Below are positions 1,939-26,999 of a stretch of DNA of 64,000 nucleotides, in pieces. Position numbers and translations under genes: made by a program. Every line of letters starts with the position of its first letter. Position 1 is the first letter of the stretch. The stretch covers positions 1 through 64,000 of the forward strand of contig JAEINU010000001.1 in NCBI GenBank assembly GCA_016342685.1, given 5' to 3'. The DNA comes from Bacteroidales bacterium (GTDB taxonomy: Bacteria > Bacteroidota > Bacteroidia > Bacteroidales > UBA12077). The notes below the pieces were generated by a model. That model had not been told where the DNA came from and did no database searches. It worked only from the letters and a program-made list of their open reading frames with translations.

Positions 1939-4900
1939 ATGAAAAAAAATAGATTGATTATTAGAATACTTATTTTTATAAGTATAATAGGAAATGCAAA
2001 TATTTCTTTGCTAAATGCTCAAACTGGTCCAGGAGGTGTTGGTAATTCAGATGGATCGAATGGACAGCCATTAAATATACTATGGTTTGATGCAAATTCA
2101 TTATTATTAAATAATAATGATCCAGTTTCAGAATGGACAGATCGATCAGGTAATAATAATCATGGGACTCAGGTTGATGCTCTAAGACAACCCAGTTTTT
2201 TAACAAATACCTTAAATGGTTATCCAGTAATTTCATTCGAAGACAATGCAGGGGGTGGAGGTGAAGAAGACTTTATGAACTTCGATGGTACTACACTTCT
2301 TAATACGGACTTAACCGTTATATATGTGGCTGCACGAAGAGATAATGGTGAAAATTTCGTGTTAGGCGGTACCACTGAATCATCGAATCAGAATTTACAC
2401 TTCGGATGGAGAAATGGGACCCAAAATACATGTAATCATTGGGGGAATGATATATATTCGAATTTAATCGGGGATGGTAGTACGTATGTTGGCGATGGAG
2501 ATCCTAGCGATGACTATGGAATATTTATAAATAGATTGGCCTCAGGAGAAACAGCACCGCAGCGAAGAGCTTTCCAAAATGGGACTCAAATTGGAATTGT
2601 CAATAATCCAAATCAACTTTCTGCATATGGTGGTTCAGCAATTGCACGATGGAGAGCAACTCCAAGATATTACGACGTTAATGTGGCTGAAGTTATATTT
2701 TTCACAAAAGCACTGAACGCTGCTCAAATGCAGATTATCAATCAATATTTAAATGTAAAATATGATATTAGTATAACGAATGATTTATTTGATCCTGTAT
2801 CAACATATATAACAGATGCCACTGGTATTGGAGAAACTAATAGTGAAGAGCATTCAAGTGCTTCCAGTGGAGGATTATATTTAACAGCATTAGGAGGCTT
2901 AAATAATGACGATTATATTTTTGTATCTCATAACGATTCATCAAACAATAGTACTAATTTTAGAATAGACTCAGAAGTTATAGCTGCAGGATCTATAGAA
3001 GCATATAACAGAATATGGTTTATTGATACAGTAGGAACTCCTGCTGCAGAAATAGCTTTTGATTTTAGTGAGTCTCTTTCTGATGGATTAAATCCAACCA
3101 ATATTTCTAATTACACTTTGCTATATCGAAGTAATACTACTGGAAATTTTACGAAAGTTAAAAATGCCGATGGCTTAAAAAATGGAGATCAGGTCTATTT
3201 TAACTTAACAGATCTTGATTTAAATACAGGTTATTATACATTGGGCACGGAAGATAATGTGAATAGCCCATTAGAAGGAGTTGCTGGAAGAACATGGTAC
3301 ACCTTGATTTCAGGGGATTGGGACGATTGGGAAGTATGGACATTGGACCCATCTGGAGCTTTACCAAATAATCCAGATCAATTAACACCATCAACATCAT
3401 CAACAAATACAGCCGATAATGTAGTTATTAAAACAGGAAGAACTGTAACTGTTGCAAGTGATAGTTTAAATCACACAAGCATTACAATCGAAGGTCGTTT
3501 AGATTTAACTACTACAACAGGTCATAGTTTTGGTGAAATACTGGGTAACGGTCGTATTCTGCTAGCAACAGATAATTTTCCTTTGGGTGATGCAAGTCAT
3601 TTCTATACAAAAGGACAAGGAGAGGGAACTGTTGAGTATTATGGAGGATCTTACAAGCTTAATACAGCAAGAGAATATTTTGATGTTGAAATAATACTAG
3701 ATAATGCCACAGATACAATTACTTTACTTAACGATTATGACATTAATGGAAATTTAACAATCTCCACAGGTATTTTAAAAATTAATGATGCTACCGATAA
3801 TCAAATAATAAACATTACTGTTGATGGTGATGTTCTGGTTGAAGCAAATGCAAAAATATTTGTTGGTACTGGTAATTCTTTTGCAACTGGAAATTATCAA
3901 ATTGGTACAGCTGTTATGCCTGAAGATGATGGGTTAAGTTATCATGATGTATTTCATCAATTTACAATTAATGGAAATTTTACGAATAGAGGTGTTGTTA
4001 GATTTACCAATTTAAATGCTCCAGATTATAATACTATGGCTACAAATGGAGCAGTTACAGTTCGTTTAACGGGAGCTTCTAATTCAGAAATTAATTTATA
4101 CAACACAACCGATTTTTATAATTTGATTATTGATAAAGGAACCGATAAAACATATAAAGCCAATTTGTATTCAGATAATGTAAATTATTTTAGAATATTT
4201 GGTGCAAATAGCGTTGGTAGAAGAACTGCAGCGCCATATTCTGCAGAAGATCCTCAAATAAGAAAAGCTTTGTTTATTTATCATGGTACTCTTCAATTAA
4301 GAGGAAATGTATATATACCTTCGTTGAGTGAGGGTAGTCAAGAGGGTGGAAATGGTGATTATGCGATAGGGAAAAATGCGCGATTCTGGATGGATGGATC
4401 AAATGTTACAGTTTATTCAACTGCAAGTGATGTGAGTCAGATAACTGGTTTTACAGCTGCAGATACATATACTGCAGATGGTGTTCAAATCAATAGTAGT
4501 AATCAGGCAATGTCGATATACGGAGAATATAGAATCACAAATGGTACTTTTGGAACACGAAATAGTGCAGGTTTTATATTTTGGGCAGCGGCGAACGCAC
4601 AAATAAAAATTGACGGAGGTACATGTAATGTTGCTCAAATGAGGAGTGCTGGTGGTACTGGTGGTATTGCATCTTATTCTCAAACATCGGGTCGAGTTGT
4701 TGTTCGCGGTAATAGAACTGAAGATGGAGAGGTGACAAGTACATATCCATTGTTTGGATTAGAAAGTACGGATGCTGTTTTTGCAATGTCGGGAGGTGAG
4801 ATCGTAGTTCGTGATATTTCAGGTGCTGCAATTGGAGATTTTTATATCCCTTCTTCTGATGGAAACTATAATGTGACTGGTGGTACAGTTACAATTGAAG

Positions 4901-7900
4901 TAAATGAAACCGATGAGTTTGATTTTTATTCAACAGCAAATATTTGGAACCTAACTGTTAAACGATATAATGATTTAATAACAAATACAGCTACATTTCA
5001 TCTATTGAATGATGTTGTAGTATCTAATGATTTAATAATAGAAACTCCTAATACAGTTACAAATACATCATTAGATGTTTTAGTGTTTATGCACGATAGC
5101 TCCGATGTGACCATTGGAAGAAATTTCACCATTGAAAGAGGAGCTCGTTATGAGTGGCCCGAAAGAGCAAATAATACTTGGGGAGCAGGTTGGTCAATTA
5201 ATACAACAACATTTAATGGATCTGAGAATGGAACATTGTATTTTACTTGGCACGATGATCCAACAGCAGGTGAGGAACAGAATTTTTGGAATTTTGTGGT
5301 TAATAAAACAAATGGTGCAAGTTTAACAATTGCCAGTGATGAAGTGAATAAAACCATGACTGGTATTAGCAATCGATTGATAAAACCCCATGGTGAACTT
5401 CGCGTAGAGAGTGGAACTCTTAATCAGGGAAACTTTTCTGTAAGAGCTTATGGTGATATAATAAATAAAGATGTGATGTTTGTTTATGATCATGGAGTAA
5501 CTCCCGATAATGCAAATTTACGTATAAGACCAGGTAATTATACCATCGAGTCAACAATAGATGCTGAATTTGGATTGGTAAAATTTAATCCTGGTGATGG
5601 TTCTGTTATTTCGTTAAGTAACGATACTTACATTAAAAGATTAAACTACCACAATGGTAGACTATACCTTGGTGCGTATAATTTAAAATTAGATCATCTT
5701 TATAACGGAAGAACAGATGCAACTTATAGGGCAAACAATGGGAGTGTTTCCAGAATGTTTATCACAGATGGAAATGCATCAGATGGAGGATTGTCTTTAT
5801 TAATTCATTCAAATAGAAGGTTTACTTTCCCATTAGGAGTTGGAACCGATGGAGTTGATGTAACAGTTGGTGGTGGTTCTAAATTTACGCCAGCGGAACT
5901 TAATATTACAAACTTCTCTGATACTGGTTATATTCAGGTTTCTGTTGCCGATAAAATATTAGCCACTACAGACCCAACAGGTGGAAATATCTTATCGTAT
6001 TATTGGAGAGTGCGTCATAATGGTTTTAACACAAGTGCTGAACCTACAGTAGTGTTGGATTTTTACTATAATGAAAGTGATGATGATGCATCAGATGAAA
6101 ATAGTTATCGTCCGGGATTTGTAACCGACGAATCTCCTTATACAAGAAATGTAGATGGTAATGCGTCAGGTGTTGATGATGCAAATAATATAATTAATTT
6201 TGATAATGGTGGCTCTGGATTTACATTGCAAAGAGCAAACTATACAGCTGGACGACAAGGTCGCTTTAATGGTCCTTTGCGCGTGTATTATTCTGTAACA
6301 GCCTCAGGGCAATATGATTGGAATGATGCTTCGCGTTGGTTTAGAGATACTCCTGACACAGGTCCAAATTTTGTTCCTACCGATGGAAGTATTGTAGTTA
6401 TTAGAGGTGGTGCAAGAATGAATATCTCTTCCGGTACAATTGCAGATCTTGCAGTTGTGGAATTTGATCATGATTATGTTACAAACCCAACACCTACACC
6501 AGAAAATGTTCCAAGAATGCAATTTCATGCAAATGGAACATATGATGTTGGAAACGTTAAAGGTACAGGTATGGTATCTTTTAATGCAACCAGAACAATA
6601 AATCTTACAGGTGATTTTGGTGATTTTGGTTCAAACTTAGAATCATATTACTTGTATTTTGGTGGCAATGCAACTTTAAATAGTATCCCTTTTCCTATAC
6701 CAAATTTAATGTTGGAAGGTGCAACATATGCTATTGATCAGAACATTACGATTAATGCTGATTTTATCATTCAGGGAAATTCTAATACAACTCCTATTCA
6801 AGATATATATGTTAAGCGGGATTTAGTATTAGGATATTGGCGAGGAGGTAGATTGCATTTTCCTCCTACAGGATCATCGCTTACTATGACAATCGATCGA
6901 AATATAGATTTTACACAATATTCTCCTCAGGGACAACAACGAGATATTATAATTGATAATCCGGGTGTTGTAAGTACTTTGGAACATAATCTTATTGTTA
7001 AGGGTGATATTATTCACGGGCCCGAAGATTATTATGATTTTGATTTATTTAATGCATCTGATAGACCAGCGGTTGTTTTAGAATTCCAAGGTGAGACTGC
7101 GCAAAGATATTATAGAACGTCTAATAGTATTCCTGATTTATATAGAGTTATAGTAAACAAAGGAACAAGTCAACTAAATACATTTACTTTCGAAGATGAT
7201 TTTAATTTATATGGACCCACAAATGGAACTACGAAAGCTCTTGAATTGCAAAATGGTATTTTAAAATTAGATGATATTGATATCGACATAGACCTTAGTT
7301 CAGGTGGAGTCGATTTTGAAATCCCTTCAACAGCACGATTGCAAGTAACTCAAGGAACTGTAAATGTTTATGGAGATAATACAGGTATTTGGCTCGATGG
7401 GAAATTATTAATTGATGGAGTCAATGGTATTGTTGATATGATAAATGGTGCAGGTAATGGGAATAATTATATTGAATATTCTTCATCTGGAAATGCAAAT
7501 ATAGAGATTACAGATGGGCAGCTTTTAATTGGTTCTCAAATAAGAAGAGGTTTAATAACCGAAGAAGGAGTCTTGTCTTTTGTACAATCTGGAGGTGAAG
7601 TTCAGTTGGGTGTTAGGCATGGGGGTGATAACGATAGAGCTATCTTTGAAATACTAAATGCAGGAAGTTCATTTGTTCATTCTAACGGAGATTTCATATT
7701 AGTTAATGATTATAGGGCTGGATCAAGTATCGCAACTACATATTTTAATCCAGAAACTGCAATTATATTATCGGGCGCAGAAATGCAGTTTGGTAATGCT
7801 TCCACACTAGCAGGAAGTGAAGATTTTACTTTGTTTGCTGGAAAGGAATTAATGAATGTAACCGTAAATACAAATGCATCTTCAACTTTAACATTAGATA

Positions 7901-10900
7901 TTGTGCCTTTAATTTTATCTGAGAATCTTACAATAAATACAAATTCAGAATTTGATGCAAATGGATTGGATTTAACAATAAAAGGTGATATGTTGGTTGA
8001 TGGAATTTTTACATCAAATCAAAATAGCACATATTTTACAGGAAGTGTTGCCCAACAAATTACAGGGAGTCCTGTTTTCTGGAATTTATATAAAACAAAT
8101 TCAAATTTATTAACATTAAATAATGATGTTGACGTAGATAATGAGCTCCATTTAGATGATGGTACTTTCAACGATGGAGATAATACCTTAAGCGTTCAGG
8201 GAAATACATGGATGGATATTACTCATACATGGGGAGGAACCAGTGATGGAATCTTATTGAATGGATCGAGTGAGCAGGTATTATTAGGTAATGGTATTTT
8301 TGGGAAACTATCGGTAAATAATAGTGCAGGAATATCTATCCCGCAAAACAATATATTTACAATTGATGGCGCCTTACAATTAGAAAATGGAGTTCTAGAT
8401 GTTGGGAAAAATCTTTTAATTATTGATGAGGATGCTATTGTAATTGAAAAAAATATTTTCTCTGAAAATAATATGATTCAGACAAACATTTCATTTACCG
8501 ATGCAGGTATTAAGAAATACTTCACGGCAATTATTCCTGCTGATAATTATAATTTTATATATCCACTTGGTTCAGAAGGAAAATACTCACCTATTGAATT
8601 GTCTATTGATAATGTGGATGCCGGAGGATCTATAAGAGTAAAAGCAGCAAACGAAATGCATCCTACTATTGTTAATGATGCAGAGCCCTGTAATGAAATT
8701 GTAGATACGCTAAATGTACTTAAATATCACTGGTTGATGGAAGCTGATAATATTAACGGTTTTACAGCCAACGCAAGTATGAAATATTACATTGAAGATT
8801 ATCAGGAGAATTCAGCATTATATGATGTGACAGATTATATTGCAGCCAGGTTGTTATGGGGGAGTACGCTCTGGAATAAATATGACCAGGCAAGTTTCGA
8901 TGAAGGAAACACCTTATTGAGATTTAGTTTTGCAGGTGATGATGATGATGGTATTAGCGGAGATTATACTGCAGGGGTAGAAGATCAAGGAGGTACTTGT
9001 GAAGGTGCTATTCCAGATGAGGTGCCTGCTTATATTAGTATTAGCGATGGAGATTGGACAGATGGTTCGATATGGGAAACATATCCTATTCCTGGTGGCT
9101 TTGTTCCATTAAACGGACCAAGAGGAGCTGTTGCAATTGTAGAGCACGAAGTTACCATTCCAAGTAATTATATTTTAAATTATAAAACAACTATAAATAG
9201 CACAGGTATAGTAAAAGTAGGCTCAACATTTGGACATCGTTTAGGAATTATAGAAGGAACAGGGACCTTACAATTAGAACGAGGAAATTTACCTGCTGGT
9301 ATTTATGATGACTTCTTTAGCAGAAGTGGTGGTACAATAGAGTTTACAGGAAATACAGATTATGATGTTCTTAGCGAAGTTGTTACTGTTCGTAATTTAA
9401 AGTTTACGGGAACTGGTGAACGTCGCTTACCAAATCTTGATTTTGAAGTGTTTGGTTTATTAACAATAGCTGGTGATGATGCTAATTTACATGTTATTAA
9501 TGAGCATGATAGAAACATGACTCTTGATAGTAATGTAGTGTTCACTCAAGGTAGTTTTGATGCAGGAATTGGCACATCAAAAGTAACAATGAATGGAACA
9601 TACAATCAGACTATAACAGGTAATTTTACAGATCCAAATGAGTTTTTAAATTTAGAAATAGACAATTCTGCAGGTGTTACCCTTGCTGGAAGTGTTGAAG
9701 TTGATGGAGTATTAGAATTTGTTGATGGTATAATCACAACAAGTGTAGCAAATATATTAATTGTTGATAACGCGGCAGAAACAACAGCTGTAGTTGGATA
9801 TAATTCATCGAATTATGTTGATGGACCAATGAGGAAGTTGATAAATAGTGGCGATGATTTTATTTTCCCTGTAGGAGATAATACCAGATATGGACAACTG
9901 GTTGTAACTAACGCAACAGCAAGTTCAGCTGGATATTGGGAATCTGAGTATTACAATGCAAATCCACACCCAACATATGATACTTCAAGTTATGCAGCTC
10001 CGTTAAATATGGTAAGTGGAAATGAATATTGGAGACTTAGTGGTCCTGAGTTAACAAGTAGCGCAGATGTTACTGTTCGATGGGATTCGCAAAGTGGATT
10101 GTCAGCAATGACAAGCGATAGGGTAAATAATTTACATATGGCTCAGTGGATAACAGGTACGCCAGATGAGTGGCAATCTGTTGGAACTGACGTTACTGAT
10201 GGAGGGGTTAATTCTGGAACTATAAAAAGTAATGCAGTAATTACATTAGAGAAGCATTATTTCACAATCGGCTCTAATGAATTAGCACCATTGCCAACCG
10301 CAACATTTATTAGCTCCGATATTTCTATTTGTGCAGGTCAGTCAACAAACTTGCAAATAGGATTAACAGGAGCCCCTAATTGGACAGTGACAATTGAAGA
10401 AGGTGGAGATAGTTATATTTTCCCTCCTCAGGCAACAAGTCCATTAACATTCTCAGTAGATAGTGCGGGTACATATACAATTACTGCCATTTCAGATATG
10501 AATGGTGCTGGAGTAGTATTTGGTAATGATGTTATTGTAACCGTAGCTCCTGTCCCAGCATTACAAGCAATAAATGGGGGAGGAACTTATTGTCAAGGTG
10601 CGAGCGGGCTTGCAATTGGATTGGATGGATCTGAGTTGGGTGTAAATTATCATCTTGTAGATCCACTAAGCGCAACTGTAAGTGTTGTTGCGGGAAGTGG
10701 AGGTGCAATAAGTTTTGGAACATACACCGATGCTGGCACATATACTATTGAAGCTTATAGCGCTATATATAGTGCATGTTCAACGCCATTAGGGACTGTT
10801 GATATAATAATGAATAATGCTCCAATTGTAAATATGTCTATCTTGAATGATACAATTTGTGATGGTGATGATCCTCAAATACAATTTGATTTTATTGCAG

Positions 10901-11172
10901 GGGCAGCTAATTTCAGTGTTACCATAACCGATGGAACAAATAGTGAAACAATAAATGGTATAGCTACAAACCCATATCAGTATTATTTACCAACGGTGAA
11001 ACCTCTGTGGAATGTAGCCGATGGGATTTCATCAACATATACATACACCATTACAAACATTACCGATTCCAATGGATGTTCAAATGTTGGTAGTAATACT
11101 GTCGATGTTGATGTATTTAAAGTGCCCTCTACTGGTCCAAATTACCATATTCCAAATGATTGGGGGAATTAA
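1939..11172 (+). CDS. Giant secreted/surface protein, ConA/LamG-like N-terminus, beta-helix-type repeats, Ig/PKD-like C-terminal region, ends TGPNYHIPNDWGN
   Basis: ~3077 aa; signal peptide MKKNRLIIRILIFISIIGNANISLLNAQ; LWFDANSL...DPVSEWTDRSGNNNHGTQ typical of Bacteroidota LamG-like domains. ORF track start 1924; internal ATG 1939 fits the signal peptide better. Confidence 0.9.
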   Translation: MKKNRLIIRILIFISIIGNANISLLNAQTGPGGVGNSDGSNGQPLNILWFDANSLLLNNNDPVSEWTDRSGNNNHGTQVDALRQPSFLTNTLNGYPVISFEDNAGGGGEEDFMNFDGTTLLNTDLTVIYVAARRDNGENFVLGGTTESSNQNLHFGWRNGTQNTCNHWGNDIYSNLIGDGSTYVGDGDPSDDYGIFINRLASGETAPQRRAFQNGTQIGIVNNPNQLSAYGGSAIARWRATPRYYDVNVAEVIFFTKALNAAQMQIINQYLNVKYDISITNDLFDPVSTYITDATGIGETNSEEHSSASSGGLYLTALGGLNNDDYIFVSHNDSSNNSTNFRIDSEVIAAGSIEAYNRIWFIDTVGTPAAEIAFDFSESLSDGLNPTNISNYTLLYRSNTTGNFTKVKNADGLKNGDQVYFNLTDLDLNTGYYTLGTEDNVNSPLEGVAGRTWYTLISGDWDDWEVWTLDPSGALPNNPDQLTPSTSSTNTADNVVIKTGRTVTVASDSLNHTSITIEGRLDLTTTTGHSFGEILGNGRILLATDNFPLGDASHFYTKGQGEGTVEYYGGSYKLNTAREYFDVEIILDNATDTITLLNDYDINGNLTISTGILKINDATDNQIINITVDGDVLVEANAKIFVGTGNSFATGNYQIGTAVMPEDDGLSYHDVFHQFTINGNFTNRGVVRFTNLNAPDYNTMATNGAVTVRLTGASNSEINLYNTTDFYNLIIDKGTDKTYKANLYSDNVNYFRIFGANSVGRRTAAPYSAEDPQIRKALFIYHGTLQLRGNVYIPSLSEGSQEGGNGDYAIGKNARFWMDGSNVTVYSTASDVSQITGFTAADTYTADGVQINSSNQAMSIYGEYRITNGTFGTRNSAGFIFWAAANAQIKIDGGTCNVAQMRSAGGTGGIASYSQTSGRVVVRGNRTEDGEVTSTYPLFGLESTDAVFAMSGGEIVVRDISGAAIGDFYIPSSDGNYNVTGGTVTIEVNETDEFDFYSTANIWNLTVKRYNDLITNTATFHLLNDVVVSNDLIIETPNTVTNTSLDVLVFMHDSSDVTIGRNFTIERGARYEWPERANNTWGAGWSINTTTFNGSENGTLYFTWHDDPTAGEEQNFWNFVVNKTNGASLTIASDEVNKTMTGISNRLIKPHGELRVESGTLNQGNFSVRAYGDIINKDVMFVYDHGVTPDNANLRIRPGNYTIESTIDAEFGLVKFNPGDGSVISLSNDTYIKRLNYHNGRLYLGAYNLKLDHLYNGRTDATYRANNGSVSRMFITDGNASDGGLSLLIHSNRRFTFPLGVGTDGVDVTVGGGSKFTPAELNITNFSDTGYIQVSVADKILATTDPTGGNILSYYWRVRHNGFNTSAEPTVVLDFYYNESDDDASDENSYRPGFVTDESPYTRNVDGNASGVDDANNIINFDNGGSGFTLQRANYTAGRQGRFNGPLRVYYSVTASGQYDWNDASRWFRDTPDTGPNFVPTDGSIVVIRGGARMNISSGTIADLAVVEFDHDYVTNPTPTPENVPRMQFHANGTYDVGNVKGTGMVSFNATRTINLTGDFGDFGSNLESYYLYFGGNATLNSIPFPIPNLMLEGATYAIDQNITINADFIIQGNSNTTPIQDIYVKRDLVLGYWRGGRLHFPPTGSSLTMTIDRNIDFTQYSPQGQQRDIIIDNPGVVSTLEHNLIVKGDIIHGPEDYYDFDLFNASDRPAVVLEFQGETAQRYYRTSNSIPDLYRVIVNKGTSQLNTFTFEDDFNLYGPTNGTTKALELQNGILKLDDIDIDIDLSSGGVDFEIPSTARLQVTQGTVNVYGDNTGIWLDGKLLIDGVNGIVDMINGAGNGNNYIEYSSSGNANIEITDGQLLIGSQIRRGLITEEGVLSFVQSGGEVQLGVRHGGDNDRAIFEILNAGSSFVHSNGDFILVNDYRAGSSIATTYFNPETAIILSGAEMQFGNASTLAGSEDFTLFAGKELMNVTVNTNASSTLTLDIVPLILSENLTINTNSEFDANGLDLTIKGDMLVDGIFTSNQNSTYFTGSVAQQITGSPVFWNLYKTNSNLLTLNNDVDVDNELHLDDGTFNDGDNTLSVQGNTWMDITHTWGGTSDGILLNGSSEQVLLGNGIFGKLSVNNSAGISIPQNNIFTIDGALQLENGVLDVGKNLLIIDEDAIVIEKNIFSENNMIQTNISFTDAGIKKYFTAIIPADNYNFIYPLGSEGKYSPIELSIDNVDAGGSIRVKAANEMHPTIVNDAEPCNEIVDTLNVLKYHWLMEADNINGFTANASMKYYIEDYQENSALYDVTDYIAARLLWGSTLWNKYDQASFDEGNTLLRFSFAGDDDDGISGDYTAGVEDQGGTCEGAIPDEVPAYISISDGDWTDGSIWETYPIPGGFVPLNGPRGAVAIVEHEVTIPSNYILNYKTTINSTGIVKVGSTFGHRLGIIEGTGTLQLERGNLPAGIYDDFFSRSGGTIEFTGNTDYDVLSEVVTVRNLKFTGTGERRLPNLDFEVFGLLTIAGDDANLHVINEHDRNMTLDSNVVFTQGSFDAGIGTSKVTMNGTYNQTITGNFTDPNEFLNLEIDNSAGVTLAGSVEVDGVLEFVDGIITTSVANILIVDNAAETTAVVGYNSSNYVDGPMRKLINSGDDFIFPVGDNTRYGQLVVTNATASSAGYWESEYYNANPHPTYDTSSYAAPLNMVSGNEYWRLSGPELTSSADVTVRWDSQSGLSAMTSDRVNNLHMAQWITGTPDEWQSVGTDVTDGGVNSGTIKSNAVITLEKHYFTIGSNELAPLPTATFISSDISICAGQSTNLQIGLTGAPNWTVTIEEGGDSYIFPPQATSPLTFSVDSAGTYTITAISDMNGAGVVFGNDVIVTVAPVPALQAINGGGTYCQGASGLAIGLDGSELGVNYHLVDPLSATVSVVAGSGGAISFGTYTDAGTYTIEAYSAIYSACSTPLGTVDIIMNNAPIVNMSILNDTICDGDDPQIQFDFIAGAANFSVTITDGTNSETINGIATNPYQYYLPTVKPLWNVADGISSTYTYTITNITDSNGCSNVGSNTVDVDVFKVPSTGPNYHIPNDWGN

Positions 11173-11193
11173 AAAGGATATATATTAGTTTTA

Positions 11194-11226
11194 AATAGGG
11201 TGGTAAACTGTTTTTATCACCCTATT
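11194..11226 (+). terminator. Hairpin terminator or attenuator after first giant gene
   Basis: aatagggtg...caccctatt perfect 9-bp stem; weak T-tract. Confidence 0.55.
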
Positions 11227-11421
11227 TATCTATTATTTAATGATGTTAATCAATTAAAATGGCATAGATATTTAAATGGATATTGAATAACCCACTGATT
11301 CTTTGTGAATTTAAATAATTTCTTTAATTTCACATGATTTTTCAAAAAGAACAAAACGTAAAAAGTTCCGTATAAATAATCATCAAAACGTATTTTTTTG
11401 TTATTACAATATTTAAATTCT

Positions 11422-14400: not shown

Positions 14401-17400
14401 GGCGATTTTCTAATGGCTTCAGGAACTGCATACACTCCAGGAACAAACTGGACAACATTTAATGGCTTGGGAGATCAAAGTTTTGATATTAATATTGTAG
14501 GGGCATTAGCATTAAATAAGTTTAAGCTTGATAAACCTGCTGGGGCAACATTAATTTTCAAAGGAACACAATCAACTATTTCGATATCCGATTCATTAAC
14601 GATTCTAAAGGGTACTTTGGATGATGGTGGTAAAACATTAAATTTTGCTGGAACGAACTCTGAATCTTATTTATATAACTCAGGAATTCATTCAGGAACA
14701 GGAAAAATTGTTTTCAACGATAATGTTCCACAATTAATAACTGGTGATGGAACAGGTGTGTTCGGAAATATCGAATTAAATAATAATACAGGAACAGCAC
14801 CCGTTTACTTGGGAGTTTCTTGTACCATTAATGGTGAATTGACATTCTCGCAAGATAAATTATTCAATATTGGTGAATATAATTTAAAGTTAGGCTCATT
14901 AGCTTCAATAAACAATGCTGGCCAAAATAGATATATTCGATCAGATGGAAAAGCAGGAGATGGTGGAATTACTAAAGTTTATTCCGCATTAGCAAGTAGT
15001 TTTGATTTTCCGATTGGTGCACCTTCAACAAGTCATGCAAGTGCAAATTATACACCTGCATCATTATCTTTTGGAACTGCACCAACAAGTTACGGGAATA
15101 TTACGGTTGTGCCTGTGGGATATGAGCATCCTAATACAACTTCTAAAAATAGAAGTTTAACATATTTTTGGAGAGTAAAATCTGAGAGTTTCAATTTAGG
15201 CTCTGCAATAATCAATCATTCATACACATATTCCGAAAACGACGTTGTAGACAATGGTTCCGATCCAACTGAATCAGAATATATTGCGGCTATGTATAAC
15301 AATGTATCTTATACATGGACTAAAGAAACTGTTGCAGATGTTAATGCAACCACAAATGTTATAGGGGGAATTGGAACAAGTTATCAGGTATTAAATACAA
15401 TTGATGGTGAGTTTACAGCAGGAGATACTAATCCTAATGATCCCTTTGGAACACCAACTAAATTTTACAGTCGTGCAAATGCAAACTGGAATGTAAATTC
15501 TACATGGTCAAATACAGGTCATACAGGAGCAGCAGCTAGTTCAAGTCCGGGGGCTAATGATGTTGTAATAATTGGGAATAATAATACGGTTACATTAACA
15601 AAAAATGAGAATTGTGCAAGTCTTCAGATCGAAGCAGGTGCCACATTAGATATCTATACTTATACTGGAAGTGTTTTTAGTATTGTTCTTACACACCCAA
15701 ATGGTAATGGACTCTTTAGGGTTACAACTCCCGTTACACCTAACAATAGTATTCCTGGATTTTTCACATTTCCTTCGGGCGATTTTTCCGATTTTAATGT
15801 AAATTCTGGTACAACTGAATTTTACGATATTGATGGAACAGTTGGTGCTTTGTATATACTCCCAGCTAATATAAACCAATACGGAAACCTTATTGTAACT
15901 GCTAGAGGAGGGGATAATTTAGTAATGCCGAATAATGCTTATACCACGATATATGGAGATTTAACATGTACGGGAGATGCAACAACTGCATGGATTGCAA
16001 TGTCTTGGAATACAAACATAGCACCTTATTGGGATAACACTGCTTACAATCCCACCATTGAGAAAACTATAAATATAAAAGGTGATTTTAATATCAATGC
16101 AGGATCCTTTGAGTTTTTTAATGACAGAGCCCCACAGCATCTTATTGTTGAGGGTAATGTAAATGTTGCTGCAGGAGCAGTTTTAGAAATTTATCCTGCT
16201 TATCCTTTTGTAGCTCCAGTAGTTACGAATACAATGGAAATCGGAGGTTCATTGATTAATAATAATGATGTTACATTAAGTGCTTCAAGTGATGGTAATA
16301 TCTATAATATCCATACAACATTCTTTGGCGATAATTCAGCATCTATTACAAATAATACAGGTTCACCAACTACTATATTTAGTAATGTTACTATAAATAA
16401 AGGATCATCACAATCAGATACTTTAACTATTGATATTGGAGGAACACTTACTACTCCTACTGATAATTGGTTAACATTACAGAATGGAACATTAAAGTAT
16501 AGTCGAATAAATCCTTCGTCAGATTTTACAATTTCAAGAGCAACTCAATTTATAATCCCACCTACAGCAGGTTTGTACATCAATTACCCCAATAATGTTT
16601 CGAACAGAAATATCCTTATTGCTAATTCTAATTCCAACGATAATGATTTGTATTTAAACGGTAAATTATCGGTAATTGCAGGAAATGTTTATGTAGGTAA
16701 TACTGGGAATATAAGAAATAATGATATTGAATATTCTGGAGGGGGCGATGCAACAATTGATATACAAGGAGGTAATTTAATTGTAAATGGTCAGATTCGC
16801 AGAAATCCTGCAACCACTAGTGGAATTTTGAATTATACTCAAAGTGGAGGTCAAGTAATAATTAATGGTCAAAATGCTCTAGCAACTAACGCTAAACTTG
16901 AGGTTTGTAATGTAGGCAGTAATTTCGACATGTCTGGTGGTAGTTTAACAATTGTACGTGGTGGTGGAACAACATATGGCGATTTATATATTCGAGCCGA
17001 AAATAGCACGGTTACAGGTGGAGAGATTATCTTTACACAACTGCCAAACATAGGACCAATTGTTAATTCTGTACAAAATTATATTTTAGATGCAAATGTG
17101 CCTTTAAATCATCTAACTATTACAGGAAAAACTGCGGCAACAGCAAGAAATGCTACTGTTACCCTTTTAATAAGTCCATTAACTTTAAACGGTGACTTAA
17201 CAATAAGTAATAACAATAGTATTTTCGATGTGAATACAAATTATGATATTGATGTAACTGTTAAAGGAGGTTTTACAAATAATGGATTTTACAATCATTA
17301 TAATAATTTAACTACTTTTAGTGGGGGAGTTCAATCTATTCAGGGATCTACAGCAACTGATTTTTACGATCTGTTAGTTGATCCGGTTACTTCTCTGTCT

Positions 17401-20400
17401 TTAATTCGTGATATAACAATACATAATGATTTAGATCTTAATTCAGGACAATTATTAGGAAGTACATTTGATATAAATGTAGAGGGTAATCTAATTAATA
17501 ATGCCAATTACGATGGAGACTCTATTCAAGGAGGTGTAATTTTGAATGGTTCAAGTATTCAAAGTATTTCTGGTTCTGGAACATTTGGTCGTCTTGAAAT
17601 TGATAATGCATTTGGAGCAAGGATTCTTAATGATGTTACCTTGCAAAAAAACTTAAGACTAACAACAGGTATTTTAGATATAAATAGATATTTATTTACA
17701 CTTGGAGTAACTAGTATTATAGAGGGAAGTTCATTTGGTACCACTAAGATGATTTCTTCTGATGGAGTTTTTAGTGATGTTGGTTTAAGAAAATACTTCA
17801 ATAAGTATAATGATATTGCTGATACTTTAATATATCCAATAGGAACATCAGGTAAATATACGCCGGTTGATTTAAGATATACAAGCAATACAAATGTTGG
17901 TTATATCCGTATCAATAGCATTAATGATAATCACCCGGGTGTTCTTGATCCTGATAATGTGTTAGATTATTTCTGGGAGGTTGAGAGTAATGGGATAGCC
18001 GGATTTAATGGATCTTTTGATTTTAATTATTTAGAAGAAGATGTTCAACTTACAGGAGTTAATACGGAGGCTGATTATATTGCTGCTGCATTACACATAC
18101 CAGGGAGTTCTTGGTCTAAAATAGATAATGTCGATGAATCAAACAACATAATAACTTTTGATTATTCTGGTGTCGATAATTTAAGTGGAGAATATACGGC
18201 AGGTGTCGACCCTGCATTACCTCTTAATGTTCCTGAATACACAAGTATTAACGATGGAAAATGGTCCGTTGAAACAAATTGGGCGTGGACAGGTGGTGAT
18301 GCCTATGATTGTCCTGCTGGTGGTCCAAATGGATTTATTGTTACTATTGCTTCTGATGATACTATAACAACTGATGCAAATTATGCTTCAGCGTATAGGT
18401 TAAGTATTGAAGGGAAATTGAAAATTTCTTCTACAAGTTTTGGACATAATTTAGGTTCAGTTTCTGGTAACGGAATTTTATATCTCGAGAATGGAACTTT
18501 CCCTGCAGGACGATTTACTGACTTTCTGGATTGCTCAAATGGAGCAACATTGGAATACGGAGGAGTTTCAAATTATACAATAATATCTGATTTATACTCT
18601 TCTATTCCGAATCTGCATTTCACTGGAGGTGGAACAAGAACTCTTCCCAATAAGGATCTTACAATTTGTACTCAGTTATTAATAGATGGACCAGATCTTG
18701 ATAATAGTGTTAATAATCGTAAACTGACTATTCAAGGAACGATGGAGCGATACAATACAAGTACATTCATTAGTGGTTCTGGAGCTTCAGCGACAGTGAG
18801 TTTTGCAGGCTCTTCCGCTCAGACGATTGGAGGGGTATTAGGTAATTTTACTGGGGTAAATTCATTAAATAATCTGGAGATTAATAATTCTTCTGGATTA
18901 TCCATTAATAATGGAGGATCCGTTGAGGTAAAGAGAAATTTATTATTGACAAATGGTCTTATTTCAACAGCTGCATCGAATTCTCTGAAAATTACAAATA
19001 CAGATATTAATTCTGTTATTCCTGTAGGAGGGAATTCCGGTTCTTATGTAGATGGCCCTTTAATTAAAGATATTAATCAAGGAGATAGCTTTCTTTATCC
19101 AATTGGAAAAGGAACAGAAATTGGTAATAAAATAACTCTATCGTCGGTTCGTAATGGAACCATTTCATGGACAGCAGAGTATTTTACACCAAATACAACT
19201 TTCAATAATTATGCGAATCCATTAACCTATGTGAATTCAAAAGATTATTGGACTGTAAAAGCAGGTCCGGCCGATCAGGCAATAATTGGTTTAAAGTGGG
19301 ATGATGTTAGTGATTTAACTCCACTTATGACTGAAAATGGATTAAGTGATATGCGCGTAGCTGATTATAATACTGGAACCGAATGGACAGAAATAGGATC
19401 TTCAGCTTCAGGAGATAATAATAATGGAACGGTGACTACTTCCAGCGAAATATCATTGCCTGTGGGAGGATCTAGTGATTTTACAACCGCATGTATTAAT
19501 ATAACTAAACCTAGAGCAAGATTAAATCCGACTGGAGCAGTTTGTGGTGCTGATGGAATTCCAGTAACTTTTATATATTCAGCAGCCATACCGTTCAATT
19601 ATACATTGGATTATACCATTGATGGTGTTGCACAGCCACAGATAACAATTACTTCTGGCGAGGTTCCATATACATTAACAACACTAATTACTGGAACATA
19701 TAAGCTTAAAGCATTTACATATAACAATGGAGTTAATAATGGTGTAGTTGATCAAAGTGAGGTTATTGTTTACGACAATCCTACAGTAGCAAATGCAGGA
19801 ACGGATCAATCCATTTGCGGAGGCACAAGCGCTACATTGGATGGAAATGATCCAGCTCCATATGCAGGTCTCTGGACTATTATAAGTGGCGCTGGAGGCA
19901 CGGTTGTAACTCCAACATCTCCCACAAGTACTTTCAATGGAACAAATGGAACAACTTATACTTTGCGATGGACTATAACAAATGGTGGATGTGAATCTTC
20001 AAGGGATGTTGTGATTGATTTCCCAATTAATCCTCCAGTACCAGCGGTTTTTACAGCAAGTTCTGCAGAAGTATGTCAAGGACAATCAGGAGTGGTGTAT
20101 ACCGTTCCTAATGACCCAGGGGTTACATATAATTGGAGTTATAGTGGCTCAGGTCATACGATTAATGGAACAGGAAATTCTGTAACCTTAGATTTTGATA
20201 ATTCCGCTACAGGAGGAACATTAGGTGTTACATCTACAAATGGGTGTGGTATAAGTCTTCCTAGAGAGATTGCAATTAACGTGAATCCAATACCAACCAT
20301 AACTCTTGATGATCCTAATGTTCAAGTATGTCAAGGAGGAACTTCGGTTGATTTAGTTTATACAGCAAGTACGGGATTTCCCGATTTATATAGTATTAAT

Positions 20401-20892
20401 TTTGATGCAGTTGCTGAAGGTCAAGGTTTTGCTGATGTTTCTGATGTGGCTCTAATAGGAAGTCCTATATCTATAACTGTTCCAGGGGCTTCAAATTCAG
20501 GAACATATAATGGTATTCTAACTGTGGTAAATAGTGTTGCATCATGCATTAGTACAACATATCCAATAACCATTCAGATTGATGCAATTCCTGCCCCAAC
20601 AATTTCAGGTATAGATACAACCTGTGTTGGAAACAGTCTAATTTATACAACCGAAGGGAGTATGAATAATTATGTTTGGACAGTTGATGGTACATATGGG
20701 AATGTATCATTAGGAGCGGGTACAAATAGCATAACGGTTGATTGGACAAACTTTACGGGAATAGGTACACCAACAACAATAAATGTTACATATGATAATG
20801 CTGGATGTGTTCCTATATCTGATGGAGCCATAGATGTAATGGTTTTTAAAATCCCAGAAACAGGAAATACATATCACATACCGGAGAATTAA
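11422..20892 (+). CDS. Giant secreted/surface protein paralogous to the upstream one, ends TGNTYHIPEN
   Basis: ~3156 aa; signal peptide MNILYINCKKGYLLIITLVLLLVQFPSLKAQ; long co-linear similarity with first giant protein (e.g. NTTDFYNIVLDKGIDQTFK vs NTTDFYNLIIDKGTDKTYK). ORF track start 11398 is a TTG; ATG at 11422 preferred. Confidence 0.9.
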   Translation: MNILYINCKKGYLLIITLVLLLVQFPSLKAQELLWTEDFEEAGADTYTSNTANLSGLSNAWSYEKTNAGRLRMSAGAAYSKSGTHAATLDVNVNRSLSENYITVVLDISNYSAFTNIALGFSYMDHGDEDNTNDKVWVRSGNDNSQPWVEVYDLAPEGVTNGNWNDVTGIDVTTPLAGQPVSNFLQIRFGQQDNWPTTSTTGNDGITFDDITLSGYSVIWAEDFTYGNGTVTGQGSPAIATWTADGVSGGLGIAVNGEQMRGRNTRSANPDNSLWSINAGDPIEISGFKDVKISVDISENSNLEVADYIQLQYSIDGGAWVNFDVNGYRNNEFTSAVATQSGLSGSTLRIQIIMYNNADKERYFADNIRVTGTPEVVNMGSGTSYYSYQSGNWDDAGTWTHDPGGTTQTATDIPNSGDFVVILGSRTVSLDSDVDTTNLDIVINEGAILNLTTFQFNNDLASLSGQGTLRLSSVNFPTVATNNFVNTGGGTTEYNNASNFTLPATQLVYNNLRLNASGVTATQLSNIDLNGDLHIKQGTYRINDNSVARRQLTINGSVLVDNGASITVGSGNTIDGDISGGTAPFTDYYDKQTHRVVVNGDFTNNGTVKFTNQNFPVFNAFPNNGAATVYFMGATDNTLTCNNTTDFYNIVLDKGIDQTFKLVVYSNAYDHFRLFGRNSEGGENGGANPDLRKALWIRTGTLELQGLTIIPSLTEGGGGGTPNSDFYIPVNGALVLNGSEVVVLSTADDYEEVKAAYNLTLGGTGSVNGVNKGISASSFSIYGKLEINDGYFSTRECGGFVTWDLASGQFNINGGVVDAKQFRAASGSLGLSSYSQSGGEFILRGRFQRIPTKYDNVSDLVNAPINTTRTTTGLDGTKGSFNINNVANVFAMSGGKITIYDASGADGKVFDVLASTANINVTGGTLEIIPTDGSGAEPTNLIITSNAELNNLTINRQSGTSNVQLSTYPLNVLSNLTLSSGTLLANNLNVTVGGDFLMASGTAYTPGTNWTTFNGLGDQSFDINIVGALALNKFKLDKPAGATLIFKGTQSTISISDSLTILKGTLDDGGKTLNFAGTNSESYLYNSGIHSGTGKIVFNDNVPQLITGDGTGVFGNIELNNNTGTAPVYLGVSCTINGELTFSQDKLFNIGEYNLKLGSLASINNAGQNRYIRSDGKAGDGGITKVYSALASSFDFPIGAPSTSHASANYTPASLSFGTAPTSYGNITVVPVGYEHPNTTSKNRSLTYFWRVKSESFNLGSAIINHSYTYSENDVVDNGSDPTESEYIAAMYNNVSYTWTKETVADVNATTNVIGGIGTSYQVLNTIDGEFTAGDTNPNDPFGTPTKFYSRANANWNVNSTWSNTGHTGAAASSSPGANDVVIIGNNNTVTLTKNENCASLQIEAGATLDIYTYTGSVFSIVLTHPNGNGLFRVTTPVTPNNSIPGFFTFPSGDFSDFNVNSGTTEFYDIDGTVGALYILPANINQYGNLIVTARGGDNLVMPNNAYTTIYGDLTCTGDATTAWIAMSWNTNIAPYWDNTAYNPTIEKTINIKGDFNINAGSFEFFNDRAPQHLIVEGNVNVAAGAVLEIYPAYPFVAPVVTNTMEIGGSLINNNDVTLSASSDGNIYNIHTTFFGDNSASITNNTGSPTTIFSNVTINKGSSQSDTLTIDIGGTLTTPTDNWLTLQNGTLKYSRINPSSDFTISRATQFIIPPTAGLYINYPNNVSNRNILIANSNSNDNDLYLNGKLSVIAGNVYVGNTGNIRNNDIEYSGGGDATIDIQGGNLIVNGQIRRNPATTSGILNYTQSGGQVIINGQNALATNAKLEVCNVGSNFDMSGGSLTIVRGGGTTYGDLYIRAENSTVTGGEIIFTQLPNIGPIVNSVQNYILDANVPLNHLTITGKTAATARNATVTLLISPLTLNGDLTISNNNSIFDVNTNYDIDVTVKGGFTNNGFYNHYNNLTTFSGGVQSIQGSTATDFYDLLVDPVTSLSLIRDITIHNDLDLNSGQLLGSTFDINVEGNLINNANYDGDSIQGGVILNGSSIQSISGSGTFGRLEIDNAFGARILNDVTLQKNLRLTTGILDINRYLFTLGVTSIIEGSSFGTTKMISSDGVFSDVGLRKYFNKYNDIADTLIYPIGTSGKYTPVDLRYTSNTNVGYIRINSINDNHPGVLDPDNVLDYFWEVESNGIAGFNGSFDFNYLEEDVQLTGVNTEADYIAAALHIPGSSWSKIDNVDESNNIITFDYSGVDNLSGEYTAGVDPALPLNVPEYTSINDGKWSVETNWAWTGGDAYDCPAGGPNGFIVTIASDDTITTDANYASAYRLSIEGKLKISSTSFGHNLGSVSGNGILYLENGTFPAGRFTDFLDCSNGATLEYGGVSNYTIISDLYSSIPNLHFTGGGTRTLPNKDLTICTQLLIDGPDLDNSVNNRKLTIQGTMERYNTSTFISGSGASATVSFAGSSAQTIGGVLGNFTGVNSLNNLEINNSSGLSINNGGSVEVKRNLLLTNGLISTAASNSLKITNTDINSVIPVGGNSGSYVDGPLIKDINQGDSFLYPIGKGTEIGNKITLSSVRNGTISWTAEYFTPNTTFNNYANPLTYVNSKDYWTVKAGPADQAIIGLKWDDVSDLTPLMTENGLSDMRVADYNTGTEWTEIGSSASGDNNNGTVTTSSEISLPVGGSSDFTTACINITKPRARLNPTGAVCGADGIPVTFIYSAAIPFNYTLDYTIDGVAQPQITITSGEVPYTLTTLITGTYKLKAFTYNNGVNNGVVDQSEVIVYDNPTVANAGTDQSICGGTSATLDGNDPAPYAGLWTIISGAGGTVVTPTSPTSTFNGTNGTTYTLRWTITNGGCESSRDVVIDFPINPPVPAVFTASSAEVCQGQSGVVYTVPNDPGVTYNWSYSGSGHTINGTGNSVTLDFDNSATGGTLGVTSTNGCGISLPREIAINVNPIPTITLDDPNVQVCQGGTSVDLVYTASTGFPDLYSINFDAVAEGQGFADVSDVALIGSPISITVPGASNSGTYNGILTVVNSVASCISTTYPITIQIDAIPAPTISGIDTTCVGNSLIYTTEGSMNNYVWTVDGTYGNVSLGAGTNSITVDWTNFTGIGTPTTINVTYDNAGCVPISDGAIDVMVFKIPETGNTYHIPEN

Positions 20893-21162
20893 AATGAAAA
20901 GCTTACATAGGCACTTAAAAAAACTTATTAACAATTATCAAATTATTTAGATTGAATAATTTGAATATGTTAATAAAATAGGTATTAATACTTAAATTGA
21001 TTTAACTAAATGGTTGTAATTTAGTGATTAATAAAGAAACGCATTTTGAAATACATAGATTTACATCAATATTCTAACTTATAAGGATACTTTAGGATTA
21101 AGAATAATTATATCACCAATAAAAATGGGTTAATGGAACAAATTGATATATTAACAAAAAGC

Positions 21163-21222
21163 CTTTGGCATTAATCATTAAAAATGATACTTTTATGGGT
21201 CGAAAGAGCCGGTTAATCAAAG
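21163..21222 (+). ncRNA. Candidate structured 5' leader element upstream of the 321-aa protein gene
   Basis: CTTTG (21163-21167)/CAAAG (21218-21222) can enclose hairpins atcatt-aaa-aatgat (21174-21188) and gggtc-GAAA-gagcc (21197-21210). Confidence 0.35.
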
Positions 21223-21357
21223 CCAGATAGTTAAACTGAAACTAAACAATGCTTAAATCGTTAAATAAATAGAATAAAAACTGTATTACTAAAATAACAA
21301 ACTATAATATAATACAGAACATAAAGAAAAATAAATACTAATTTAAACTTTTAGATC

Positions 21358-22323
21358 ATGAAAAAAATGAACTTTTTAAAAATCGCTTTCACATTCGTTT
21401 TAGCTCTTGTTATGACTGCTGCTATTGCACAGAATGACCCTGCTGATTACGGATTAATTAGCACAGATGGTGATGTTTCATATGTTACTTTAGATGCAAC
21501 AATTCCATTTTATGTAACTCCAGATGCTAACTATCATCCAACTTGGGCTGCATTTTCTACTAATTTAACAGCTGGTTTCACTTGGAATTACTATACTGAC
21601 CTTAGCTGGACTATTGGAACTGAATTAGCATTAGCTATAACTGATAACTACGTAGAAATTACAGCAAATACAGTTGGGTCTTATCCAATTAATGTAAAAG
21701 AAGAAGCTCCAGCTGCTTTTGGTGGTTGTGAAGATGCTACTGGTGTAGATTTTACTGTTAATGTTATTGCTAAGCCAACTGCTGATATTACTGGTGCTGC
21801 TGCAAATAATGTATGGAACACAACAACTGCAGGTCACGAATATTATATTTGTGGTGATGCCCTTGCTGAAAACATTACTATTGGTATAACAGAAACAGGT
21901 GTACCTGCTGCTTTAGCTAGTTATGCTTACTCGGTGCAGAAAAGAGTTGTTAATATTAATAATTTAGGTGTTGAAACTGGAGCTGCTACAACAACTACTC
22001 CTGTTGATCGTACTATTGCTACTAAAAATGCAACTGCAACTATTAATGGTGGTACTGAAGTATTTACTACTGCTGCTATGCCTGTTGTAGGTGGTTTAAG
22101 AACAAAATATGAATTTACTATGCAAAAAGCAACTGATGCTGCTGCTGCTGTTGCAGAAGGTATCGTTTCGGCTGTTTCTCATAAATCAGATTATTTAACT
22201 GTTGCTGGCGCTGGTAATATTACAGGATATCCATTTACAGGAACTGTTACTGTAGTTTATATTGTTAACCCTGCTCCAACAACTGGTCCTATTTATCATA
22301 TTCCAACTACAGATTTCTTATAG
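21358..22323 (+). CDS. Secreted protein of unknown function, Ala/Thr-rich, ends TTGPIYHIPTTDFL
   Basis: Signal peptide MKKMNFLKIAFTFVLALVMTAAIAQ; shares C-terminal TGPxYHIP motif with the two giant proteins. Confidence 0.85.
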   Translation: MKKMNFLKIAFTFVLALVMTAAIAQNDPADYGLISTDGDVSYVTLDATIPFYVTPDANYHPTWAAFSTNLTAGFTWNYYTDLSWTIGTELALAITDNYVEITANTVGSYPINVKEEAPAAFGGCEDATGVDFTVNVIAKPTADITGAAANNVWNTTTAGHEYYICGDALAENITIGITETGVPAALASYAYSVQKRVVNINNLGVETGAATTTTPVDRTIATKNATATINGGTEVFTTAAMPVVGGLRTKYEFTMQKATDAAAAVAEGIVSAVSHKSDYLTVAGAGNITGYPFTGTVTVVYIVNPAPTTGPIYHIPTTDFL

Positions 22324-22348
22324 TCTTAAAAAGAATTTAATTATATTT

Positions 22349-22380
22349 ATAACTGGATTAGGTTTTCCTAATCCAGTTAT
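22349..22380 (+). terminator. Strong intercistronic hairpin (terminator/attenuator or mRNA stabiliser)
   Basis: ataactggattagg-tttt-cctaatccagttat: perfect 14-bp stem with 4-nt loop. Confidence 0.75.
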
Positions 22381-22414
22381 TCTAAAAATAGAGATATAAC
22401 TAATAAAGAAAAAA

Positions 22415-23416
22415 TTGAAAAAATATATTTACATATTGTTTTTAATTGTTTCGCTAATAAGCTTTAGCTTCAATAGTTATGCTCAGGATTTACCAATAGC
22501 ATGTGGAGGTAGTGTTGAAAGATATCGTGTTGCAGGAGATAATGGTAATTCAGATTTTTATTGGGAAGTTACCGGAGGTGAAATCCTAAGATTTTTTAAC
22601 GATTCTGTTGATATTAAGTGGAGTATTGTAGCTGGAGTTAGAACGATTACAGTTACAGAAAAGAATTTGTATGGTTGCGAAGGTGACCCTTATTCTCAAA
22701 CATTAATGGTAAGTGCTCCTTTTGTAGATATTGGATTAGATGAGGATATTTGTGCTGGAGAAACTTATGAATTTATTACATCAAGCTCTGATGTAACCTC
22801 TTATTTATGGCAAGATAATGAAACAAGCAGTGAGACTTTTATTGCTTCAGTATCTGGTGATTATTGGGTAAGAGTAACAGATGAGTATGGTTGTGCAAAT
22901 ACCGATACCGCAACATTAATAGTTCATGATTTACCTTTGGTCGATTTAGGAGCAGATACAACTCTCTGTGCTGGAGAACCAGGTATCACATTTGACGTTG
23001 CCGACTTCGGAGAAAATTATGAATGGTTTAATGATGAAATCAACTCTATTTATACTGCTGAGTATAATGGAGAAAAACAAGAAATATGGGTAAAAGTGAC
23101 TGATCAATATGGATGTGTTGGTATAGATACTGTATTGGTTGGCTTATGCGAAATTTTTATTCCGAATACGATTACTCCTAATGGTGATAATTATAATGAT
23201 GATTGGGAAATTGAAGCCCTTCAGGCATTTGATGATGTAACTGTTGATGTGTATAATCGTTGGGGAGAAAGAGTTTATCATTCTAAAAAGTATGATGAAC
23301 CTTGGAATGGAACAAATTTAAAAGGTAAAAAATTACCAATGGACTCTTATTATTATGTAATAGATCTACATAATGGAGATGAGCCTATTGTTGGAACAGT
23401 GACAATAATTCGCTAG
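22415..23416 (+). CDS. Gliding-motility-associated (CHU_C) C-terminal domain protein, T9SS type B sorting domain
   Basis: C-terminus IFIPNTITPNGDNYNDDWEI...VDVYNRWGERVYHSKKYDEPWNGT...GTVTIIR is the CHU_C signature; PKD/Ig-like repeats; TTG start. Confidence 0.93.
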   Translation: MKKYIYILFLIVSLISFSFNSYAQDLPIACGGSVERYRVAGDNGNSDFYWEVTGGEILRFFNDSVDIKWSIVAGVRTITVTEKNLYGCEGDPYSQTLMVSAPFVDIGLDEDICAGETYEFITSSSDVTSYLWQDNETSSETFIASVSGDYWVRVTDEYGCANTDTATLIVHDLPLVDLGADTTLCAGEPGITFDVADFGENYEWFNDEINSIYTAEYNGEKQEIWVKVTDQYGCVGIDTVLVGLCEIFIPNTITPNGDNYNDDWEIEALQAFDDVTVDVYNRWGERVYHSKKYDEPWNGTNLKGKKLPMDSYYYVIDLHNGDEPIVGTVTIIR

Positions 23417-23460
23417 TTTCTTGGAATTTATAAGGAGATTGACTTGTTTTGTGGAGGAAA

Positions 23461-24438
23461 ATGAAAAAAATATTAACAATATTATCTATCTTATTATTGA
23501 CCGTATGTATTGCAAAGAGTCAGCAAGAGCCTGTCTTTAGTCAATATACTATGAATCAATTTCTCATTAACCCTGCCTTTGCTGGTAGTGAGGGATATAC
23601 TTCATTTAATCTTACAGCTCGACAACAATGGTTAGGTTTTGAGGGGGCGCCAATGACCCAGGCAATTAGTGGTCAGACCCGAATCAGTAAAACAAGTTAC
23701 GTTTCTAAATCTAGATCCGTTAAAAAAAGAATTAAGAAAAGAAGACCAAGCGGTAAAATTGGTATAGGAGGATACCTTTATAACGATCAGAATGGACCAA
23801 TTGGTAGAACAGGACTTGAAATAAGTTATGCCTATCATTTATTTGTTAATGATGGGCAATTATCTTTAGGATTATCCCTATCGGCATACCAGTTTAGAGT
23901 AAATACAGCAGATTTAGTTGGAGTTGACGAGGCAGATCCACTTTTAGGAAGTGCTCGTGAAAGCATGTTTATCCCAGACGGTTCTGTTGGAGTTTATTAT
24001 ACATTCTTACCATTTTATATTGGTTTATCAGCAAAAAATTTGTTTCAAGCAAGCGTTAAGTTCGGCTCTGATAATAGTTTCGGCGATTATCAGCAATTAA
24101 GACATTACTATCTTACGACTGGTTATAAATATGATATGGGTAATGATTTCGAGATTGAACCCTCGATTTTATTAAAAACAACAGAATTGTTTAATTTACA
24201 AGCTGATGTTACATTAAAGGGGTATTACAAAAGAGATTATTGGTTAGGGTTTTCATATAGAACAGGAAACGCTTTTATAACAATGGTCGGGGTTAAAGTG
24301 GATCGTTTGTACTTCGGATACGCTTTTGACTATTCATTAAATGATATTCAGAGAATTAGTTATGGATCTCATGAAATTATGATTGGACTTAAATTCGGTG
24401 ATAATTCTAGAAGATATAGATGGTTAAATAGATTCTAA
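23461..24438 (+). CDS. PorP/SprF family type IX secretion-associated outer membrane protein
   Basis: QQEPVFSQYTMNQFLINPAFAGSEGYTSFNLTARQQWLGFEGAPMTQ...; ORF track start 23449 is TTG, ATG at 23461 precedes signal peptide. Confidence 0.95.
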   Translation: MKKILTILSILLLTVCIAKSQQEPVFSQYTMNQFLINPAFAGSEGYTSFNLTARQQWLGFEGAPMTQAISGQTRISKTSYVSKSRSVKKRIKKRRPSGKIGIGGYLYNDQNGPIGRTGLEISYAYHLFVNDGQLSLGLSLSAYQFRVNTADLVGVDEADPLLGSARESMFIPDGSVGVYYTFLPFYIGLSAKNLFQASVKFGSDNSFGDYQQLRHYYLTTGYKYDMGNDFEIEPSILLKTTELFNLQADVTLKGYYKRDYWLGFSYRTGNAFITMVGVKVDRLYFGYAFDYSLNDIQRISYGSHEIMIGLKFGDNSRRYRWLNRF

Positions 24439-24461: not shown

Positions 24462-24490
24462 ATGCTTTGTAATCTTCAAAGCATTTTTTT
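24462..24490 (+). terminator. Rho-independent terminator after porP/sprF-like gene
   Basis: atgctttg-taatctt-caaagcat followed by T-tract. Confidence 0.85.
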
Positions 24491-25923: not shown

Positions 25924-25933
25924 TAAAATTATT

Positions 25934-26998: not shown

Positions 26999-26999
26999 G

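Follow-up and report, generated by a model that had tools for sequence, protein, structure and literature searches.

A short C-terminal tail shared by giant and small surface proteins of a Bacteroidales genome points to a candidate hub-and-clients display locus

Introduction

Cargo of the type IX secretion system (T9SS) is currently recognised by C-terminal domains (CTDs) of about 100–235 residues, and proteins without a CTD are not counted as cargo. Proteins with a type B CTD need a cognate PorP/SprF protein as shuttle and anchor, which is usually encoded directly downstream (PMC12618676, PMC9143113). The locus described here is located in a 64,000-nucleotide stretch of a Bacteroidales genome (contig JAEINU010000001.1, positions 1 to 64,000; hereafter the window). 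It raises the question of how two proteins of about 3000 aa without a known T9SS signal could reach the cell surface and be kept there, when the type B domain (CHU_C) is encoded by a separate small gene.

Organization of the locus

The locus (1939–24438, forward strand) contains five co-oriented genes, and all five ORFs were confirmed using the ORF list and translations. The first gene (1939–11172; the ORF opens at 1924) encodes giant tail protein 1 (3077 aa) with a long beta-rich body and C-terminal Ig-like domains. The second gene (11422–20892) encodes giant tail protein 2, which is 3156 aa long from the in-frame ATG at 11422 (the ORF opens at 11398) and contains a beta-rich body with PKD_6/Ig domains according to Pfam/NCBIfam. 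Giants 1 and 2 are paralogous (32% over a stretch of 1252 aa). Next to them, the locus contains genes encoding a small tail protein with two Ig-like domains (21358–22323; 321 aa), a CHU_C protein that is called the hub below (22415–23416; 333 aa) and an outer-membrane protein of the PorP/SprF family (23461–24438; ATG at 23461, ORF opening at 23449). The preliminary description had listed five co-oriented genes with signal peptides and a terminator at the end, and these points agree with our data: the orientation is the same for all ORFs, the N-termini, including those of both giants, were read as signal peptides by eye, and a terminator-like hairpin (24462–24484) followed by a T-run is present downstream of the PorP/SprF gene.

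It is unlikely that the five genes form one plain transcription unit, since giant 1 is followed by a strong terminator-like 16-bp hairpin (11192–11228; MFE of −23 kcal/mol for 11173–11260), the small gene is preceded by a 465-bp gap and a perfect 13-bp hairpin (22350–22379; MFE of −22 kcal/mol for 22324–22420) is located between the small and CHU_C genes. The latter hairpin is possibly an attenuator or an mRNA stabiliser; a strong hairpin was found in the same place, 3' of the small gene, in many relatives. An ISL3-family transposase gene (PF01610; 112–1095, reverse strand) is located just upstream of the giants. Genes for a TPR protein, a PF00144 serine hydrolase and a kinase/NtrC-type pair lie directly downstream of the PorP gene (24583–29709), and they are kept in this position throughout the genus. 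The TPR gene was considered as a PorE candidate and rejected because no OmpA-type domain was found in its product in Pfam.

The search against Pfam and NCBIfam did not reveal a type A or type B T9SS signal on either giant or on the small protein. Namely, TIGR04131 and PF13585 had no match in giants 1 and 2, and the type A models TIGR04183 and PF18962 had none in the giants or the small protein. There was also no type C match in these tail-bearing proteins, although the Pfam/NCBIfam libraries may not include a type C model. The hub passed TIGR04131 with 63.5 bits (cut-off of 35) and PF13585 with 85.7 bits (cut-off of 27), its type B CTD being located at 23150–23413, and the PorP/SprF protein passed TIGR03519 and PF11751. 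The earlier claim that the giants lack CHU_C and that this domain sits on a separate 333-aa protein was therefore borne out. The genome also encodes the T9SS translocon protein SprA (TIGR04189, 2688 bits). Five other CHU_C loci were found in the genome, and all of them encode ordinary adhesins in a single chain, immediately followed by PorP; thus, the contrast of the locus under study with SprB/SprF systems is real.

Shared C-terminal tail

The feature of the locus that matters most is a C-terminal tail common to both giants and the small protein, with the consensus P-x-T-G-P-x-Y-H-I-P-N-x-[WF]-x-x-stop. The preliminary description had used the term "YHIP proteins" in a check that it proposed, but the shared tail was absent from its stated reasons. 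Giant 1 ends with PSTGPNYHIPNDWGN (11125–11169; tail HMM E = 1.1e-13), giant 2 carries the shorter variant PETGNTYHIPEN (20854–20889; E = 1.1e-9), and the tail of the small protein is PTTGPIYHIPTTDFL (22276–22320). The latter is the best-conserved part of the small-protein family: in the similarity-selected alignment A1, majority conservation was 0.83 in the tail vs. 0.42 in the body. The DNA pattern for TGxxYHIP had exactly three matches in the 4.77-Mb genome, all of them corresponding to the three tails, while no matches were found for the reverse/control patterns. The same three C-termini were found by a 29-position tail HMM (E from 1e-13 to 1e-9; the next match had E = 2.3). Comparison of the small protein with the giants revealed 54% over 22 aa of the tail and no significant similarity outside it; since these proteins have little in common except the tail, it can be considered portable. 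Exactly six residues were found between YHI and the stop codon in 75 of 89 distinct tail proteins, using a regular expression that permitted 0–12 residues after YHI. The tail had no match in Pfam or NCBIfam, and nothing relevant was found in the literature on YHIP or on T9SS cargo without a CTD. TGxxYHIP matches in three other families (G030, G047 and G054) were not C-terminal beside CHU_C/PorP and were attributed to chance.

LPXTG substrates carry a short C-terminal sorting motif, and type V pili use a C-terminal strand for assembly. The P-x-T-G part of the tail superficially resembles the former, as in KLPETGPQYHI of the locus L045, so the tail might be read as an LPXTG-like site of sortase-type cleavage and covalent anchoring. 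This reading was rejected as extremely improbable: PF04203 sortases gave no matches in the genome with positive results in control Gram-positives, neither a membrane helix nor a charged tail follows the motif, the protein ending about six residues past YHI, and the conservation extends through YHI-P-N. The proteins under study differ from LPXTG substrates and type V pili in that no PF04203 sortase, no membrane anchor and no pilin family match were found here.

Conservation of the gene neighbourhood

In the first set of relatives, homologues of the small protein were found in most genomes of the same genus, in two of the five genomes of the sister genus and in one other family. The order in the readable stretches was as follows: giant(s), small protein, CHU_C protein, PorP. 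When 84,980 species genomes were scanned for the PxTGPIYHI pattern, 49 stretches were obtained, and 36 of them encode relatives of the small protein. These 36 loci belong to the isolate Perlabentimonas gracilis M08_MB (Tenuifilaceae; L084), which has the small, hub and PorP genes, and otherwise almost exclusively to Bacteroidales MAGs. The CHU_C gene follows the small gene in 35 of the 36 loci, and the contig stops in the remaining one; PorP follows the CHU_C gene in the fetched loci wherever the contig is long enough. As the loci were selected by the PxTGPIYHI pattern, the invariance of the tail in them (L058–L093) is partly circular; the similarity-selected alignment A1 gave the same picture. 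Thus, the gene order, which had been proposed as a check, proved to be conserved. The split architecture suggested earlier is real and conserved as well, but its core unit comprises the genes of the small protein, CHU_C protein and PorP and not all five genes.

Several genomes contain small genes in tandem. In the genome G018 (L029, 12506–13812), a second N-terminal CHU_C fragment and small ORFs were found between the small gene and the hub gene, and this arrangement is apparently a disrupted duplicate. One hub locus (L079) is located on a contig labelled Acidobacteriota, which is probably a binning error in the MAG.

Distribution of the tail and unlinked giants

A survey of 392 Bacteroidales genomes revealed the small protein in 39 of them (E ≤ 2e-9). 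Tail matches were found in 38 of these 39 genomes; the exception, G315, was small-positive with E = 1.9e-9. Giants with the tail (ORFs of at least 1000 aa) were encoded in 24 of the 39 small-positive genomes, some of the positive genomes being without one, and in 0 of the 353 small-negative genomes; the Fisher p of about 2e-28 is only indicative and overstates independence, since the genomes are related and the tail HMM and the sampling share ancestry. Overall, about 10% of the near-complete Bacteroidales genomes in the sample carried the tail, and 0 of 392 other genomes did so in the phylum-wide control. Four genomes with marginal tail-only matches (G026, G107, G288 and G369; E from 1e-4 to 6e-4) were treated as chance findings.

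Many tail giants, often arranged in tandem, are located on other contigs or 30–160 kb from the hub. No CHU_C or PorP genes were seen beside these unlinked giants in the stretches fetched around them, and TIGR04131 had no match in three unlinked giants. The tail always occurs in genomes that encode the CHU_C protein and its partner, and this suggests a display system of the "one anchor, many clients" type.

The same distribution bears on the simplest explanation, according to which the locus is an ordinary SprB/SprF-like adhesin locus and the tail just closes the last Ig domain as a structural element and has no role in targeting. CHU_C and PorP are indeed the classical pair, and the giants contain PKD/Ig domains like other adhesins of Bacteroidota. 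However, this explanation appears very improbable, as the giants have no type B CTD and the tail is common to unrelated proteins, keeps a fixed spacing to the stop codon and is found only in genomes that contain the hub.

Small tail protein

Judging by its sequence, the small protein is the founder of a family outside Pfam and NCBIfam; the family had no match in either library and no pilin family match. The codon adaptation index (CAI) of the small gene was 0.824, which is higher than that of every reference gene (0.62–0.77; 28 genes of the ribosomal region) and, with the same reference, than that of the hub (0.722), giants (0.693) and PorP (0.646). In the control, 1000 synonymous recodings of the small gene at the window background peaked at 0.750. 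Among 14 loci of relatives, the small gene had the highest CAI of all locus genes in 13, a borrowed reference being used for distant genomes. These values suggest that the small protein is probably not an accessory but the major subunit, expressed at a high level.

The hub gene probably starts with TTG, and 32 of 35 hub genes of the family lack an in-frame ATG around their start; most of them start with TTG and a few with GTG, some of these start positions being guesses. This conserved TTG start is unusual and possibly has a regulatory role. A large excess of the small protein over the hub would fit the codon bias, the hairpin after the small gene and the start codons of the hub genes.

Modeling using AlphaFold2 led to two Ig-like domains in the small protein, and its tail was modelled with low confidence (pLDDT of 62, then 45) and is predicted to be flexible. 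A search with the small family against solved structures did not find a relative, and the fold search gave weak matches to generic Ig folds alone (TM of about 0.2).

These characteristics could also be explained if the tail were a polymerisation strand, with which the small protein assembles with its neighbours into a fibre or coat. The hub would then be the base of this structure, and the giants would be adhesins at its tip or sides. A CAI above the ribosomal range, which is top or near-top in the loci of relatives, would agree with such a role, the hairpin and the TTG start of the hub fit the stoichiometry of a major subunit and its anchor, and the modelled Ig-like folds are compatible with it. 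However, the small protein has no obvious truncated acceptor domain, its fold matches are weak and generic, and the tandem small genes are not accompanied by any direct sign of polymers; we consider polymerisation quite improbable.

Hub, PorP/SprF protein and the proposed model

The AlphaFold2 model of the hub contains three Ig-like domains and the CTD (mean pLDDT of 90). The first domain, D1 (residues 25–100; 22487–22714), starts straight after the signal peptide (QDLPIAC) and begins 5–6 residues before its first Cys (alignment A3). In D2 (APFVDIGLDEDIC) and D3 (DLPLVDLGADTTLC), the segment ahead of the equivalent Cys is longer. Across the family, the mature N-terminus of the hub lies only about 5–15 residues ahead of the first Cys of D1, and the conservation of D1 is only slightly above that of D3. 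The tail of the clients starts at the matching point, namely after the last strand and proline of an Ig domain. Three hub loci (L065, L071 and L078) contain two consecutive PorP genes and encode a D1 without the conserved Cys.

Taken from the sequences, these data lead us to lean, without great assurance, towards a hub-and-clients surface display, in which the clients would be recognised by the shared tail. The small CHU_C protein would be secreted via the T9SS as the hub, and the adjacent PorP/SprF protein, its putative cognate shuttle and anchor, would hold it in the outer membrane, as is known for type B substrates elsewhere. The abundant small Ig-like protein and the giants of about 3000 aa, all without a known T9SS signal, would be the clients. 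Their tails would dock them on the hub for export and/or surface retention, either in cis or in trans. That the CHU_C protein physically carries the other proteins of the system through the T9SS is what we infer, and the binding of the tail to the hub, the secretion route and the structural or adhesive roles of the locus are likewise putative.

In a more specific, weaker proposal, the A-strand segment missing from D1 would come from the tail; this proposal is based on the short N-terminal segment of D1 compared with D2 and D3 and on the matching start point of the tail. This strand-donation version is tentative and should be regarded as doubtful. The same degree of doubt applies to the broader suggestion of an undescribed class of short sorting tails, with which CTD-less proteins, including the giants of about 3000 aa, would piggyback on the hub by strand donation to D1 and the surface layer would consist mostly of the small subunit. 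If true, surface proteins overlooked by present annotation would form an additional class marked by a 15-residue tail, one type B/PorP pair would serve several cargoes in trans via an adaptor, and T9SS recognition would become testable through a short transplantable tag.

Alternatively, the tail could be a new T9SS signal that is read directly by the translocon or PorP, the hub then being only a cap or a further substrate. Proteins of the PorP type are known to read secretion signals (PMC12618676), and the tail keeps a constant distance to the C-terminus, takes the place of a known CTD and is restricted to genomes with the trio of the small, CHU_C and PorP genes. However, the tail, with about 15 residues, is much shorter than the known CTDs of type A (about 100 aa), type B (150–235 aa) and type C, the latter being a third class of T9SS signal represented by a domain of about 100 aa in ChiA. 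In addition, direct reading would not account for the constant small CHU_C companion with its conserved D1, and we find it rather unlikely.

Comparison with known systems

Like the SprB/SprF system of Flavobacterium johnsoniae, the locus combines a giant surface protein, a PorP/SprF outer-membrane partner and the T9SS, and the gene of the protein with the type B CTD is directly followed by PorP, an arrangement kept in relatives. Unlike SprB, the giants have no CTD, which is found on the separate 333-aa protein, and the clients share a new tail and are sometimes encoded elsewhere. The twin-cysteine motif in the C-tail of SprF couples it to the gliding track (PMC12635249). The PorP protein under study ends with GDNSRRYRWLNRF without this motif, and its sole Cys is located within the signal peptide; static display is therefore more likely than SprB-type gliding.

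The PG1035-PorP-PorE system of Porphyromonas gingivalis also includes a small protein with a type B CTD that PorP keeps on the surface, but no tail-bearing clients are known there and no PorE-like gene is located beside the hub here. The best relative of the hub among solved structures was the grappling hook protein GhpA of Aureispira. Positions 110–334 of the hub profile matched the C-terminal end of GhpA (5898 aa); the E-value of 4.6e-139 refers to the entire chain and sums 21 repeated domains. In GhpA, the giant body and the CHU_C-like end belong to one chain, whereas they are split in the locus under study.

In L154 (G000:C25, 2992–7965), an orphan CHU_C protein of 1658 aa is encoded with no PorP gene beside it. 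The CTDs of this protein and the hub share 53% identity, so the orphan may use the hub's PorP.
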